Assembly (NCBI RefSeq): GCF_000154785.2
Contig: NC_015730.1
Coordinates: forward strand, 3,991,501 to 4,055,500
From: Roseobacter litoralis Och 149
GTDB taxonomy: Bacteria; Pseudomonadota; Alphaproteobacteria; Rhodobacterales; Rhodobacteraceae
Reading direction: 5' to 3'
DNA length: 64,000 nt
Positions 32,142 to 58,339 of the stretch are shown here, one piece after another (the stretch's first letter is position 1; the number at the start of each line of letters is the position of its first letter). The position numbers and the translations under genes are program-made. The notes beneath the pieces were generated by a model. That model did no database searches, was not told the origin of the DNA, and worked only from the letters and a program-made list of their open reading frames with translations.

Positions 32142-32210
32142 GTCGTAGCCCCTCGGTTTAAGAGTCAGGAAGCTAAAGGGCGCAGGACATCACGGATGCG
32201 AGTTCCGCGA

Positions 32211-32294
32211 GCTGTTCCCTCCGCCGGTCCTAACCGGTTCAGGTTCAATGGGTTCGCAGCTTGTGCATCTCAGCCCGGTTAAGGGCACCCCAAC
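32211..32294 (-). promoter_or_regulatory. TPP riboswitch (THI element)
   Basis: Read on the minus strand, the region opens with GGGGTGCCC, then CTGAGA (32268-32273), ACCCATTGAACCTGA (ACCTGA at 32239-32244), CCGGTTAGGACCGGCGG and GGAGGGAA (32215-32222). These are the conserved segments of the TPP aptamer in the right order. It precedes thiD by about 70 bases and so should repress the whole operon when thiamin pyrophosphate is plentiful. The expression platform (terminator or RBS occlusion) was not resolved. Confidence 0.94.
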
Positions 32295-32816
32295 AGATAT
32301 AGATCTACGTGTAAGTTGATCGCGCAGAAGCGTCAAATGGTTAAAAGGATCTCAGGAGAATTGTTCTGAATGTCTACGAAATTGATCTTCGAAAGAGAAA
32401 AAGGGCCGCGACCATCTATGTTCTGTCACGCGACACCAAACGGTTTCCTAAAGCTGACACGGATGACTGCTTTTTGCACCGCCTCGCAACGCAGATCTTT
32501 TCGTGCATGCAGAATTTTTTACGCTGCAAACACACCCAGTACAATTCTAGCATGTCGGCTGCGAGCTCAAACCTGTCGTCGGCACCTTCGCAGCATCGAC
32601 GATACGCAATGATGAAGGGCCTTTGAGAACGGCCCCAACCAGCCGTTCATCGCGAGAACCGTTGCCGTATTGCAGCTTCCCCGGAGCGGCGTTGATCGAT
32701 TGCGCAGCATTTCCAACATTAACGTGCACTCATCGCACAAAACGAACTCTCGCAAGCGTAGCTTTAATTACCGCCATGCGACCTCACTTGCTCCGGGTTC
32801 GGCGCATTTATACCTG
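32295..32816. other. Intergenic region between the thiamin operon and a LysR gene
   Basis: The right end near 32295-32370 must hold the thi operon promoter. The rest has only short, unconvincing open frames on both strands and no recognisable protein similarity. A degraded gene is possible but I cannot name one. Confidence 0.4.
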
Positions 32817-49804: not shown

Positions 49805-51175
49805 TTAGCCTTGGATTTCGCCGTCCAGAACGGTCTGTCCGGACTTCAGTCCAATTGGCAGGCTGTCGATGTAGGCGTTTGGTGAGCGGCCATCATAGGG
49901 AATGGCGTCGATGATATCGCTGGCAGGCGTCGGATCTTTGAAACCGTCGGTGTCCCACGGAAAATCAGCCTCGTTGGCCATGCCTTCGTCAACCAACAAG
50001 CGCGCGGCCTCAAGGTAGATGTCAGGGCGGTAGACGTTGGCAGCGGTCTCGAAATACCACGCGTCCGGCATGGTTTCCGGGATTTGGCCCCAGCGGCGCA
50101 TCTGCGTCAGATACCAGATCGCGTCCGAATAGAACGGATAGGTCGCGTTATAGCGAAAGAAGACGTTGAAATCTGGTGCGGGGCGCACGTCGCCTTTTTC
50201 GAACTCGAAAAAGCCCGTCATGGAATTGGCAATGACTTCGGCATCTGCCCCGACGTATTCAGGCCTCGACAGCATCTCGACCGCTTCTTCGCGGTTTGCG
50301 TTGTCGTTTTCATCCAGCCAGATCGCCGCGCGGATCAAAGCCTTGGTCAGGGCGGTCGTGGTGTTGGGGTAGTCTGCGGCAAATTCAGCTGTGATGCCAA
50401 AAACCTTTTCGGGGTTGTTCTTCCACATGTCGTAATCGGTGATCACTGGAACGCCAATGCCCTTGAACACAGCCTGCTGGTTCCACGGTTCACCGACCGC
50501 GTACCCAAAGATCGTGCCTGCTTCCATCGTGGACGGCATTTGTGGCGGCGGTGTTACGGACAACAAAACATCCGCGCCGATTTGACCTGAAATGTCCTGC
50601 TCGCTGTAAAACCCGGGCTCAAGTCCACCCGCAGCCAGCCAGTAGCGGATTTCGTAGTTGTGAGTGGACACAGGGAACACCATGCCCATGTTGAAGGGCT
50701 CACCACGGTCGAGATACTCCTCGACAACAGGCGCCAATGCGCTCGCACTGATGGGATGTTGCGGGCGACCATCGTCCATCAAAGGCACATTCGGGCGCAT
50801 TTGGTCCCAAATCTCGTTGGAGACCGTGATCGCGTTGCCATTTAAATCCATTGAAAACGGCGTGATGATATGGGCTTCGGTGCCGTAGCCGATTGTTGCT
50901 GCCAAGGGCTGACCGGCCAGCATATGCGCGCCGTCCAACTCTCCACTGATCACGCCGTCCAGCAGAACTTTCCAGTTTGCTTGCGCCTCAAGGGTCACGA
51001 AAAGACCCTCGTCCTCAAAATACCCGAGCTCATATGCAACCGCGAGCGGGGCCATATCCGTCAGTTTGATAAATCCCAGTGTCAGGTCTTCTTTTTCAAG
51101 ATCCAAAGACTGGGCCACCGCAGTGGAGGCCAACAAGCTGGATGTTGCCAGTAAGATCGCGCGTGTCTTTTTCAT
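49805..51175 (-). CDS. nrtA: Nitrate-binding protein NrtA (CmpA/NrtA family)
   Basis: The 456-residue precursor has a Sec signal [20 protein letters not shown] ending AQS. Family features are [40 protein letters not shown] and [20 protein letters not shown], then [20 protein letters not shown]. It binds nitrate in the periplasm. It is the first structural gene after the nasTS pair, with a 260-base leader in between that contains a strong terminator. Confidence 0.93.
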
Positions 51176-55588: not shown

Positions 55589-55710
55589 CATTCGATCAAA
55601 GGAAAACTGTCACGCGTTTCGCATGTTCATGCGCGATGCAGCGAACGTCAGTTTGGATGAGGCCACCGTAACCATTCGGCAACTGCTTTGCGTCGGCGGT
55701 ACTTTACCAC

Positions 55711-56262
55711 CTACCTAAAAAACAGATGTGAGTATTCCCTGGTTCCCGCAAGGATCTCTTTTACAACAGAGCCCGGTGTAGGCCAGCTAGGGTGCAAGAC
55801 GGCTTCAACGGCGTCCGCGTCAAATACGAGCCGCGCGTTATGTTTCGCCGCAAGATGCCGCATCTGGATGTTTTCTTTCAGGCACACCATTTTAATTGTT
55901 CGAACGCCCCTGTTCCGGGCAATGATGAGAATGTGTTCAAACAAGGCATCGCCGATCCCGATGTTTTGCCATTCAGTCTCAACACAGAACGCAGCTTCGG
56001 TCGTTGACGGCCAAGCATGAAAGAGACCATTCAGCTCCACCAGTCCCTTTAGGTGCCCGTCGATAAAAGCGCCACACACGATACTATCGTAGCGAAGGAT
56101 GTTTTTCGCGTAGTTCAAAACGCCATTGTCACTGGCGGCCCCGCAAAACCTTGACCGCCGCGTTTGGACATCCAGGCGGAGGAAATGATCGCAAATATCT
56201 TCCTGATCGCCTGAATGGAGACGACGGACGACCAGATGTTGTGGGGTTCTTCTATCACTCAT
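55711..56262 (-). CDS. GNAT-family N-acetyltransferase
   Basis: A 183-residue protein with the GNAT core: VVRRLHSGDQEDICDHFLRL at the N terminus, GAFIDGHLKGLVELNGLFHA, EAAFCVETEWQNIGIGDALF with the acetyl-CoA pyrophosphate loop QNIGIG, then IKMVCLKENIQMRHLAAKHN. The acceptor is unknown. It lies downstream of two small hairpin RNAs and two DUF1127 genes on the same strand, so it could be read from their promoter. Confidence 0.88.
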   Translation of the reverse strand: MSDRRTPQHLVVRRLHSGDQEDICDHFLRLDVQTRRSRFCGAASDNGVLNYAKNILRYDSIVCGAFIDGHLKGLVELNGLFHAWPSTTEAAFCVETEWQNIGIGDALFEHILIIARNRGVRTIKMVCLKENIQMRHLAAKHNARLVFDADAVEAVLHPSWPTPGSVVKEILAGTREYSHLFFR

Positions 56263-56294
56263 TTTGCAGGGCTCCTGCCTGACAGAATGGTTTG

Positions 56295-56330
56295 GGCCAG
56301 CACCCTCGGGAGGAGGTGAGGATGCTGGCC
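56295..56330 (-). ncRNA. Cuckoo/CcsR-like hairpin RNA, distal copy
   Basis: On the minus strand GGCCAGCA pairs with TGCTGGCC (with further CCTC/GAGG pairing inside), and the loop displays CCTCCTCCC (56308-56316). Hairpins with an exposed CCUCCUCCC directly downstream of a DUF1127 gene are the definition of the Cuckoo RNA family, known as CcsR1-4 in Rhodobacter sphaeroides, where they are made under stress and processed from a DUF1127 mRNA. Confidence 0.8.
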
Positions 56331-56369
56331 TTTGCGTTGGCGCTCCCTGTTGGATTTTCGCCGCGGCTC

Positions 56370-56405
56370 GTGCTGACTTACTCTGGGAGGAGCGAGAACC
56401 AGCAC
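56370..56405 (-). ncRNA. Cuckoo/CcsR-like hairpin RNA, proximal copy
   Basis: On the minus strand GTGCTGG pairs imperfectly with the later TCAGCAC, with inner CTC/GAG pairing, and the loop displays CTCCTCCCA (56384-56392). It starts about 37 bases past the downstream DUF1127 stop and 39 bases before the second hairpin. Two tandem copies match the arrangement of this sRNA family. Confidence 0.78.
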
Positions 56406-56441
56406 TTTTCTAGGACCGTTCCGCCTTTGCGGACCGGGCCG

Positions 56442-56657
56442 TTATTCGTTCTCCATGAGCGTTGCGGCGTATTTCGGGATATCGGATCGTGAAATGCCGA
56501 CCTGCGCAAGCTGGTGGTCACTCATGCTTGAAAGCGTCGACAGCATCCGGGCCATTTGAAGCGCCCTTATGCCAGCATGTACTTTTGCGCCGAGCCTCAC
56601 CAACAGCGCGAATGGTGCGGCGAAAGCGTGATTGTGCGTCTGCGTACTAACAGCCAT
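56442..56657 (-). CDS. DUF1127 protein (CcaF1-like)
   Basis: The start at 56657 is chosen for GGAGGCGG just upstream. The 71-residue protein ends LSSMSDHQLAQVGISRSDIP, KYAATLMENE, the C-terminal DUF1127 (YjiS-like) helix motif. DUF1127 proteins are small, basic and often RNA-related; in Rhodobacter one (CcaF1) is linked to the CcsR sRNAs. It overlaps the preceding DUF1127 gene by 11 bases. Confidence 0.85.
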   Translation of the reverse strand: MAVSTQTHNHAFAAPFALLVRLGAKVHAGIRALQMARMLSTLSSMSDHQLAQVGISRSDIPKYAATLMENE

Positions 56658-56871
56658 AAGCCGCCTCCATCGCCAGTCTTTTGATATTGCTGCGTGGTAT
56701 ACCAAGGTCTTTCAGGTCTCGGTCGGTAAGTACTGAGAACTCATGATACGTTGCGCGGTAGACCCTACGTTTGGCCTGCGCCCGTCGCATGTGGTCCATT
56801 TTTTGATTAAAGAACGTGCGGCCAGCATCAAAAACGGCATCCAGCCCACTATTTGATCGTGTTATTGCCAT
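56647..56871 (-). CDS. DUF1127 protein
   Basis: The 74-residue basic protein contains AQAKRRVYRATYHEFSVLTD and RDLKDLGIPRSNIKRLAMEA, the classic DUF1127 signature. GAGGT precedes the ATG. It leads a short operon of two DUF1127 genes and two Cuckoo-like RNAs. It is divergent from a LysR gene, with an 11-base perfect inverted repeat in the gap. Confidence 0.88.
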   Translation of the reverse strand: MAITRSNSGLDAVFDAGRTFFNQKMDHMRRAQAKRRVYRATYHEFSVLTDRDLKDLGIPRSNIKRLAMEAAYGC

Positions 56872-56889
56872 GATATTACCTCGTCTCTT

Positions 56890-56919
56890 GCTGCAGTGCA
56901 GTATTTATGCTGCACTGCA
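56890..56919. promoter_or_regulatory. Perfect 11-base inverted repeat in the divergent DUF1127-LysR gap
   Basis: CTGCAGTGCAG (56890-56900) and CTGCACTGCAG (56909-56919) are exact complements around TATTTATG. It lies 19 bases upstream of the DUF1127 start. It could form a hairpin in the 5' leader or serve as an operator for the divergent LysR regulator. Confidence 0.6.
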
Positions 56920-57002
56920 GAAGTACGCGCATTTGGTAGCGCTCACAATTAGTCGATTTGGCAAGGGACCCATGCCAGATTGGAACAGGTAGGCGATACA
57001 AG

Positions 57003-57914
57003 ATGGATATTTCAGCACAGATGCTGATCTTCGCAACCGTGGTGGAACAGGGAAGCATTTCTGCGGCCGCAAGATCAATGGGGCAGACGCCTTCAGCCGT
57101 CAGCAAGCAGATTGGTCTTCTTGAGGATCACGTGCATTACCGCCTGCTGAATCGGACGAGAACCGGTGTTTCGCCAACGCAAGAAGGCCAGGACTTCTAC
57201 GAAAAATGCAGAGCAATGGCTGAAAAGTTCAAAGAGGCCGAGGCGATGATTCACACTCTTGACGGCGTCGCGCGCGGTACTCTCAAAGTCGCGTCCACCG
57301 TTGCCTTCGGAAAATCCCAGCTGATTCCTGCGTTACCTGCCTTCATGGAGGAAAACCCGGAGGTTCAGGTTGCGCTCGATCTGACGGATCGCGAAATTGA
57401 CCTTCAAAGCGAAGGGTTTGATGTGGCCATATGTTTTGCCGAACAACGCAAGAACCCCGATATTGTCGTCCGGCGCATCATGCAGAGCCGCAGGGTGCTG
57501 TGCGCCGCACCAAGCTATCTTGAGCGGTCGGGAACGCCGACAAGTTTTGCCGAGCTGGCCCACCACAATTGCCTGAGGATTGCCGGGAACAGCCGACGGA
57601 ACGCGTGGAGCGACGGAGATTCGATCAGTTGTGACGGATTTGAAGCCCAAGGCAGCTTTCAGGGAAATAGTACAGATGTCGTCTTTCGAGCGGCACTTGC
57701 TGGGATCGGAATCGCGCGACTGCCCTGTTACATGGCAAATCGAAAGTTTCAATCAGGCGAGCTCGTCCAAGTCATGCCGGAGTATGCACCGCCAAGCACA
57801 GATATCGTCGTGATGTTTCCCGAAAAACGTAATCTTGCCCCCAAAACGCGCGCGTTTGTGGATTTTCTGGTACGGCGGTTTCGTGAGGTTCGAGACTATC
57901 AGATGACTGGGTAA
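57003..57914 (+). CDS. LysR-family transcriptional regulator
   Basis: The start at 57003 (MDISAQMLIFATVVEQGSIS) fits the family; a longer in-frame start adds a non-conserved tail. HTH: AAARSMGQTPSAVSKQIGLL, then YRLLNRTRTGVSPTQEGQDF. The effector domain has GFDVAICFAEQRKNPDIVVR and VVFRAALAGIGIARLPCYMA. The 303-residue length is normal. It is divergent from the DUF1127 pair and followed 13 bases later by a carboxymuconolactone decarboxylase gene. Confidence 0.92.
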   Translation: MDISAQMLIFATVVEQGSISAAARSMGQTPSAVSKQIGLLEDHVHYRLLNRTRTGVSPTQEGQDFYEKCRAMAEKFKEAEAMIHTLDGVARGTLKVASTVAFGKSQLIPALPAFMEENPEVQVALDLTDREIDLQSEGFDVAICFAEQRKNPDIVVRRIMQSRRVLCAAPSYLERSGTPTSFAELAHHNCLRIAGNSRRNAWSDGDSISCDGFEAQGSFQGNSTDVVFRAALAGIGIARLPCYMANRKFQSGELVQVMPEYAPPSTDIVVMFPEKRNLAPKTRAFVDFLVRRFREVRDYQMTG

Positions 57915-57927
57915 CCGGTGCGGAAAC

Positions 57928-58339
57928 ATGATTGATGAGGAAGGAAAAGGTGGCGATTTGACCAAGAACACAACTGACATCGGAAGAAAGCTGTCCGAGC
58001 ACCTTAACCCGGGGATGGAAGACGCATTGAACGCGCGCTACGGGCATCTATTGCCTGGCATGGCCGAAGGTGTGGTCGATTTCGCCTATGGTCGCCAATA
58101 CGCACGGCCTGGCCTTGGTCTTCGTGACAGATATTTGGGAACCATTGCCGCTCTGACGGCCTTTGGGGGGTCAAACAATGCCTCAACTCAAGGTGAATAT
58201 CGCCGGCGGGCGCAAAGCAGGCTTGTCGCAAGAAGAGATTGCAGAAGTAATCTGGCAAATGGCGTTGTATGGTGGGTTCCCGGCGGCGATCAATGCGTTG
58301 AACGCGGCGCTGGAGGTTTTCGGCGAAGAAGATAGCTGA
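57928..58339 (+). pseudogene. Carboxymuconolactone decarboxylase family protein, split by one extra G
   Basis: The first frame reads [48 protein letters not shown]; the family continues in the next frame: [55 protein letters not shown], stop TGA 58337-58339. The switch falls on a run of six G (58165-58170); five G would restore one frame through [10 protein letters not shown]. The start is either ATG 57928 or TTG 57958 behind AAGGAAAAGG. Family members are oxidoreductase-like helical proteins. The extra G is a real mutation, a slippage site or a sequencing error. Confidence 0.75.

Follow-up and report, generated by a model that had tools for sequence, protein, structure and literature searches.

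The 64,000-nt stretch of the Roseobacter litoralis Och 149 chromosome analyzed here (hereafter the window) contains a compact locus in which two overlapping DUF1127 genes are followed by hairpins with anti-Shine-Dalgarno (anti-SD) loops. A LysR-type regulator gene is oriented divergently from these elements. The features, in the order in which the minus strand is read, are as follows.

57003 to 57914, plus strand: divergent gene for a LysR-type regulator (Pfam HTH_1 and LysR_substrate)
56933 to 56948, minus strand: conserved imperfect dyad TTGTGAGCGCTACCAA seen in the alignment, proposed LysR operator
56910 to 56920, minus strand: box 1, CTGCAGTGCAG, of the form CTGC-N3-GCAG, candidate PhaR-type site, exact in 24 of 26 loci
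56891 to 56901, minus strand: box 2, CTGCACTGCAG, of the same form, candidate PhaR-type site, exact in 21 of 26 loci
56647 to 56871, minus strand: DUF1127a gene, 74 aa (Pfam PF06568, 30.0 bits; cut-off 23.3)
56442 to 56657, minus strand: DUF1127b gene, 71 aa (PF06568, 26.4 bits; cut-off 23.3)
56370 to 56405, minus strand: anti-SD hairpin 1, loop motif CUCCUCCC at 56392-56385, based on covariation of helix 1 (4 of 12 pairs doubly changed), the fold, and the ar14 alignment
56334 to 56367, minus strand: middle hairpin, SD-like loop GGGAG at 56347-56343, based on covariation of helix 2
56295 to 56330, minus strand: anti-SD hairpin 2, loop CCUCCUCCC at 56316-56308, based on covariation of helix 3 (7 of 14 pairs doubly changed), the fold, and the ar14 alignment
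55711 to 56262, minus strand: GNAT acetyltransferase gene, an optional neighbor (Pfam Acetyltransf_1)

The minus-strand order of two DUF1127 genes, two hairpins, and a GNAT gene had been proposed in a sequence-only reading and was borne out, with correct coordinates. That reading also placed two exposed loops of the same type at the hairpins; hairpin 2 indeed carries the full CCUCCUCCC, but the loop of hairpin 1, CUCCUCCC, lacks the leading C and is thus not a full CCUCCUCCC. The conserved middle hairpin, the divergent LysR gene, and the two tandem CTGCN3GCAG boxes are additional features identified in this work.

To find relatives of the locus, we used DUF1127a as the first query and an alignment of four copies as the second. 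We aligned 26 loci (25 distinct rows) after removal of duplicates of kept loci (L066, L067, L068, L073, L077, and L083) and of one decayed copy (L082, the third copy of genome G414). Loci L042 and L085 were excluded as the canonical many-hairpin type, and L153, which was found later, stands outside the counts of 26. The start of DUF1127b overlaps the stop of DUF1127a by 11 nt, and the same offset is seen in 25 of the 26 loci. A second DUF1127-like ORF is present in all 26, without Pfam recognition in L084. The LysR gene adjoins the module in 25 loci; among the 26 checked, none was detected at L041. A GNAT-like match of any length was found in 15/26 loci (14 among the 23 loci that tblastn covered, plus L081 by eye), a count limited by the contigs of L074 and L076, which stop at hairpin 2, and no such match was found at L080 and L084. 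The GNAT gene that had been described as following the hairpins is therefore present in the window but not a fixed part of the arrangement. The core of the module consists of the LysR gene, DUF1127a, DUF1127b, and the RNA, with GNAT as an option. A PADLOC search gave no match for DUF1127a, DUF1127b, or GNAT. Beside the LysR gene lies a gene of the carboxymuconolactone decarboxylase family (57928-58339, plus strand), which is split over two frames in the window and occupies a single frame in L007. Elsewhere in the window, a TPP riboswitch (32199-32302, minus strand) scores above the Rfam cut-off.

The hairpin stretch folds 3.8 standard deviations below dinucleotide shuffles (z = -3.83), and none of 200 shuffles was equally stable. 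Across the alignment, the three helices comprise 33 pairs, with pairing kept in 97.0% of 825 pair cells and changes on both sides in 13 of the 33 pairs; none of 500 shuffles reached the pairing or the double-change value. Sliding the alignment by one to three columns lowers the pairing to 32-42%, a control biased toward the structure, as this very alignment had guided its derivation. The middle helix, formed by GGCG/CGCC and three outer pairs, is absent from the ar14 alignment. Double changes occur in two of its seven pairs, four pairs are invariant, and one outer pair is open in six of the 25 rows, among them that of the window (C-C). In a single-sequence fold of the window, the middle hairpin did not form and other pairing was preferred. 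Its loop GGGAG, present in 23 of the 26 alignment rows (counted by eye), is complementary to CUCCC of both anti-SD loops, and the diverged locus L084 has UUCCUCCC at this position. A kissing contact between the middle hairpin and the anti-SD loops, formed by GGGAG and CUCCC, may be proposed from this complementarity. For hairpin 1, an alternative pairing that consumes CUC of the loop is also possible. The bare motif CTCCTCCC occurs three times in the window, which is not significant alone, as at least three occurrences were seen in 19 of 100 shuffles.

No terminator-like site was found after hairpin 2, such that transcription may read through into the GNAT gene; the two sites of this kind in 55700-57100 (1.7 expected) lie elsewhere. 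One terminator-like site on the plus strand overlaps the CTGCN3GCAG boxes. A scan of the same region for sigma-70-type promoters found none, with 1.1 expected.

The sequence-only reading had assigned the hairpins to the CcsR/Cuckoo family and proposed a covariance-model check, the outcome of which was mixed. The Rfam model ar14 (RF02344), run on the local stretch, aligns both anti-SD hairpins at 26.2 bits (E = 0.018), which is under the gathering score of 58.8, so the locus is not assigned to RF02344; over the whole window, no Rfam match at gathering level was found at the DUF1127-hairpin locus. Weak ar14 matches mean little, since 9 of 14 control genomes match this model at E ≤ 10. Another ar14 match elsewhere in the genome (L003) was rejected, being one CTCCTCC stretch with no box. 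RNAs of the Cuckoo/CcsR type in the broad sense have two to four hairpins. The locus has at least two adjacent CCUCCUCCC-type hairpins (with CUCCUCCC as loop 1) located 3' of DUF1127 genes and linked to them; it is of the cuckoo/CcsR kind in this broad sense and is not RF02344 by the curated threshold. A CcaF1-CcsR operon proper is marked by a Rho-independent terminator at the 3' end, an RpoHI/RpoHII promoter, and an RNA that RNase E matures and Hfq binds; with no terminator-like site at hairpin 2, the locus is also not classed as such an operon. The canonical CcsR-like locus of the same genome lies at G000:C3:2651550-2651970 and has one DUF1127 gene and four hairpins. Its ar14 scores of 45.3 and 38.8 bits, the best canonical ones genome-wide, are also below the cut-off. 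In other genera, the canonical loci L009, L012, and L022 contain 10, 15, and 11 CTCCTCCC motifs, respectively, well over four. As the canonical locus exists separately in the same genome and the module has its own LysR gene and RNA shape, the earlier description of an extended version of the known CcsR layout is not supported in that form. The window locus is a separate module and not a simple extension of the CcsR locus.

The same layout was found in 17 loci, six of them in Ruegeria and the rest in Roseobacter, Planktotalea, Octadecabacter, Litoreibacter, Sulfitobacter, Loktanella, Pseudohalocynthiibacter, and an unplaced Rhodobacteraceae isolate. Further module copies occur in other genomes of the family and on one Pseudorhodobacter turbinis plasmid. 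When 394 family genomes were searched with R1, a covariance model built from the module RNA, 12 loci in 10 of them scored 89.8-150.2 bits, and the other matches listed reached no more than 50.1 bits; all 12 loci are rows of the model alignment, so this gap is in part a product of how the model was built. What the search chiefly indicates is that these genomes hold no further close copy, under stricter Infernal filters that may miss weak members. A diverged module in genome G400, which scores 34.5 bits with R1, was recognized via its boxes. Within the genus, R1 places the module in 2 of 19 genomes (both rows of the model), and a protein search likewise pointed to just one other member with a close relative. 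Class-wide, with the same stricter filters, R1 matched 3 of 289 genomes, all of the same family, and none outside it.

Genome G031 has two copies, and G414 has two in addition to the decayed third (G414:C1:2613749; L136 and L082), in which the tandem boxes are kept and no hairpin motif was found. The plasmid copy (L080) adjoins IS3-type transposase genes. Sequence identities differ between the module and host genes: compared with G411, which belongs to another genus, the window LysR is 88.8% identical, PhaR 66.1%, and the PhaC end 74.9%, whereas the values for the same-genus genome G017 are 84.5, 85.6, and 87.2%, respectively. The module is patchily distributed, is present in several copies in some genomes and in one case on a plasmid next to IS3, and disagrees with host genes in its relationships; the simplest reading is therefore that it probably moved horizontally between genera.

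The boxes lie about 49 and 30 bp upstream of the DUF1127a start. Inexact copies differ by one or two bases, and the variation falls mostly in the free N3, above all in its middle base. We examined a reading of the two boxes as an RNA hairpin and rejected it: although the N3 parts of the window could pair with each other (AGT/ACT), those of L007, for example, could not (AGT/ATC), so a protein site fits better. The pattern CTGCN3GCAG is over-represented in the window, with 7 matches against 2.1 expected and none of 100 shuffles having as many. In the accounts available to us, CTGCNNNGCAG is given as the PhaR site of R. sphaeroides, and two PhaR sites are described as flanking the -35 element in phaP promoters of S. 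meliloti (PMC12542648). The module promoter has two exact boxes of the CTGCNNNGCAG form, and these are kept in relatives. The 4.7-Mb genome has two exact tandems (spacer 4-14), one at the module and the other in the phaC-phaP gap next to phaR, where PhaC, the phasin, and PhaR were identified by family models; the reversed-pattern control gave no tandem in this genome.

This association extends to the other genomes that carry the module. Exact tandem boxes are present in 9 of the 11 module genomes and absent in G135 and G235. Among the 12 matches, 11 are at module copies (one decayed) and one is before phaP, compared with a single match, in G345, for the reversed control. PhaR (PF07879) scores over its cut-off in all 11 genomes. 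Exact boxes are found about 705-765 bp before the PhaR start motif, which is the phaP position in the genome of the window, in 8/11 PhaR loci, with 6/11 having them 53-65 bp ahead of it; phaP itself was confirmed in the window's genome only, and the start motif was not found in L138. Across the 394 family genomes (spacer 7-9), 22 tandem matches occur in 20 genomes, against one for the reversed control (G126). Ten of these are module copies (one decayed) and one is the diverged G400 module, which has a LysR gene, one Pfam-recognized DUF1127 gene with a similar second ORF, and two anti-SD hairpins. A match in G213 precedes phasin-like and PhaR-like ORFs (by eye), and one in G211 precedes an acetyl-CoA acyltransferase gene (NCBIfam; below the PhaA model cut-off). 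The remaining nine have no established link to storage genes; one of them was inspected, and nothing was seen.

Canonical DUF1127-hairpin loci were surveyed for the same box (27 loci, two of them without hairpins). A single exact CTGCATAGCAG/CTGCATGGCAG box is kept upstream in all 16 genus loci with hairpins (at 1174-1184 in L002) and in two of the nine canonical loci of other genera. Where the DUF1127 start could be located, the box usually lies 90-125 bp ahead of it; the start was not found in 5 of 25 loci and is doubtful in L022 and L029. At a distance from the module, the minus strand of the window has an intrinsic-terminator-like hairpin with loop ACCUCCUCCC (51262-51206) just before a gene for an NrtA/CmpA-like substrate-binding protein (49805-51175, minus strand, by eye), and an exact CTGCN3GCAG box lies upstream of it at 51408-51398. 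A very similar hairpin occurs in the Loktanella locus L079, together with a one-mismatch box. The ACCUCCUCCC hairpin is a candidate for a third anti-SD RNA, one whose box is of the storage type.

The dyad TTGTGAGCGCTACCAA contains TTGTGA, which could serve as a -35 element. It is kept together with LysR of the window type and is altered in L076 and L084, where LysR has diverged, and in L041, where no LysR was detected. Because this block varies along with the LysR type and the boxes do not, we attribute the former to LysR and the latter to PhaR. The assignment bears on a reading in which the adjacent LysR binds the boxes and PhaR is uninvolved, in the manner of VtlR of Brucella. The nearly constant neighborhood speaks for such LysR control, as does the precedent of VtlR, a LysR regulator reported to control an sRNA and three DUF1127 genes (PMC12595884, available text). 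However, the boxes persist next to diverged LysR genes in L076, L084, and L153, with the LysR-side block altered in the first two, and exact boxes also occur at the phaP position and near phaR. Furthermore, the VtlR motif CAATGCAGCCATGCA has no match within three mismatches at the module promoter of the window, and its best match across the 26 loci has three to five mismatches. We consider LysR control of the boxes unlikely.

Less probable still is that the module is simply another copy of the stress-induced CcsR/CcaF1 locus under the control of RpoH-type sigma factors. Such a copy would share its protein domain, loop motif, and ar14 alignment with the module, as observed, and an RpoHI/RpoHII promoter has been reported for CcsR (PMC10253847, available text), but the canonical locus is present separately, layout and RNA shape differ, and the last hairpin has no terminator. 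What was seen at the promoter points toward PhaR and carbon storage. The hairpins might also act in cis as a leader that regulates the downstream GNAT gene via its own SD. An SD-like AGGAG does lie between hairpin 2 and the GNAT start, with no terminator found in between; yet structure and loops are conserved at loci where no GNAT match was seen (L063, L069, L071, L072, and the plasmid copy L080). Cis control of GNAT is accordingly disfavored, and we regard it as very improbable.

For an RNA acting in trans, candidate targets were sought by the SD match. The motif GGGAGGAG occurs 4-11 nt before ATG at 19 sites in the genome of the window, against one per strand for the control. Three of the 19 are antisense to anti-SD hairpins; among the other 16, four precede ORFs of at most 53 aa and 12 precede longer ORFs, 11 with a Pfam family and one without. 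The candidates include transport proteins (SBP_bac_1, DctP, DctQ, a FadL-type porin, and Peripla_BP_6) as well as a CO-dehydrogenase-type flavoprotein, a sulfide dehydrogenase flavoprotein, and malate-CoA ligase beta (over cut-off). Three AMP-binding enzymes are also present: an acetate-CoA ligase and a PRK07529-type acyl-CoA synthetase, both over NCBIfam cut-offs, and a third that is closest to long-chain-fatty-acid-CoA ligases but under cut-offs (500 residues scanned). A theme of carbon activation among these candidates fits control by polyhydroxybutyrate (PHB), as noticed post hoc and without a background count.

From the gene order, RNA structure, boxes, and distribution, we infer that the module is a horizontally spread relative of the DUF1127-CcsR (CIN1) type, repressed by PhaR and relieved by PHB, whose anti-SD RNA damps carbon activation. 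This is the reading we favor, with some confidence but well short of certainty. One transcript leading away from the divergent LysR gene would encode two DUF1127 proteins, co-transcribed and probably translationally coupled, and carry the hairpin RNA in its 3' portion. PhaR would sit on both boxes and repress transcription until PHB granules form and titrate it, allowing expression, with the LysR regulator as a likely second input. By analogy with CcaF1 (PMC10253847), the DUF1127 proteins may help RNase E to free the hairpin RNA, and GGGAG of the middle hairpin may mask the anti-SD loops until this processing. Messages that have a strong SD (GGGAGGAG) and encode functions in acetyl-/acyl-CoA ligation or substrate uptake would then be bound at this SD by the freed loops and translated less, such that full carbon stores would dampen further carbon activation.

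Several observations weigh against the PhaR-based reading. DUF1127 proteins can also act through protein-protein contacts, according to the text available (PMC12501420). Neither G135 nor G235 has the exact tandem, and for 9 of the 22 matches in the family no link to storage genes is established. Neither a sigma-70-type promoter nor a terminator after hairpin 2 was found, and the alternative pairing of hairpin 1 uses part of its loop. The candidate targets were selected by SD match alone, and the loop motif is common to the canonical locus. A bolder version is tentative, and we think it rather doubtful as a whole. Here, the module would be a mobile storage-sensing riboregulator in which DUF1127 proteins and anti-SD RNA, both released by PHB, jointly keep acetyl-/acyl-CoA ligases, malate-CoA ligase, and carbon transporters from being translated; GGGAG would act as a decoy until processing, and the single-box CcsR-like locus of the genus would be wired to PHB too.

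Many alphaproteobacteria have CcsR/cuckoo RNAs and DUF1127 proteins. To our knowledge, their signals and direct targets are little understood. A search of mostly open-access literature yielded no study that connects DUF1127 or CcsR with PhaR or with phasins. The sharing of boxes with the promoter of a carbon-storage (bioplastic) gene suggests that translation is coupled to the level of storage. Provided that the boxes are indeed PhaR sites, the carbon-storage state would directly set the levels of anti-ribosome-site RNAs and of presumed RNA-binding proteins, and a small cassette could carry storage wiring between bacteria. Together, the module and the canonical locus form a natural two-locus system in one cell, with a short list of testable targets.

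Among known systems, MmgR (alpha-r8) of S. meliloti, an sRNA repressed by PhaR and tied to PHB, provides a precedent for the proposed regulation (PMC12542648, PMC12559287), although it belongs to a different RNA family and the available accounts of MmgR mention no DUF1127 genes. The VtlR regulon of Brucella, in which a LysR regulator is reported to control AbcR2 and three DUF1127 genes, resembles the LysR-sRNA-DUF1127 set of the module (PMC12595884). In contrast, the VtlR motif CAATGCAGCCATGCA was not found at the module promoter. AbcR2 is presumably an sRNA different from the module RNA. The alpha-r14/NfeR1 RNAs (Rfam RF02344; SmelA075/SmelA099) of rhizobia are described as having repeated hairpins with CCUCCUCCC loops, like the module, and as blocking ribosome-binding sites, an action that the available texts treat as inferred (PMC10746234, PMC3927594). 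The module differs in its score (26.2 bits, below 58.8), in stems that are strongly conserved within the module, and in the linkage to DUF1127 and LysR genes. The closest layout is that of the CcaF1-CcsR1-4 locus (CIN1 type) of Rhodobacter sphaeroides, where a DUF1127 gene is likewise followed by hairpin RNAs. There, according to the text available, co-transcription and RNase E processing have been reported (PMC10253847), and each CcsR-type hairpin is described as having an anti-SD motif (PMC3927594). Compared with that locus, the module has two overlapping DUF1127 genes, a divergent LysR gene, tandem CTGCN3GCAG boxes, and a patchy distribution, and it has two anti-SD hairpins placed around an SD-like third, in a genome in which the canonical locus exists besides.
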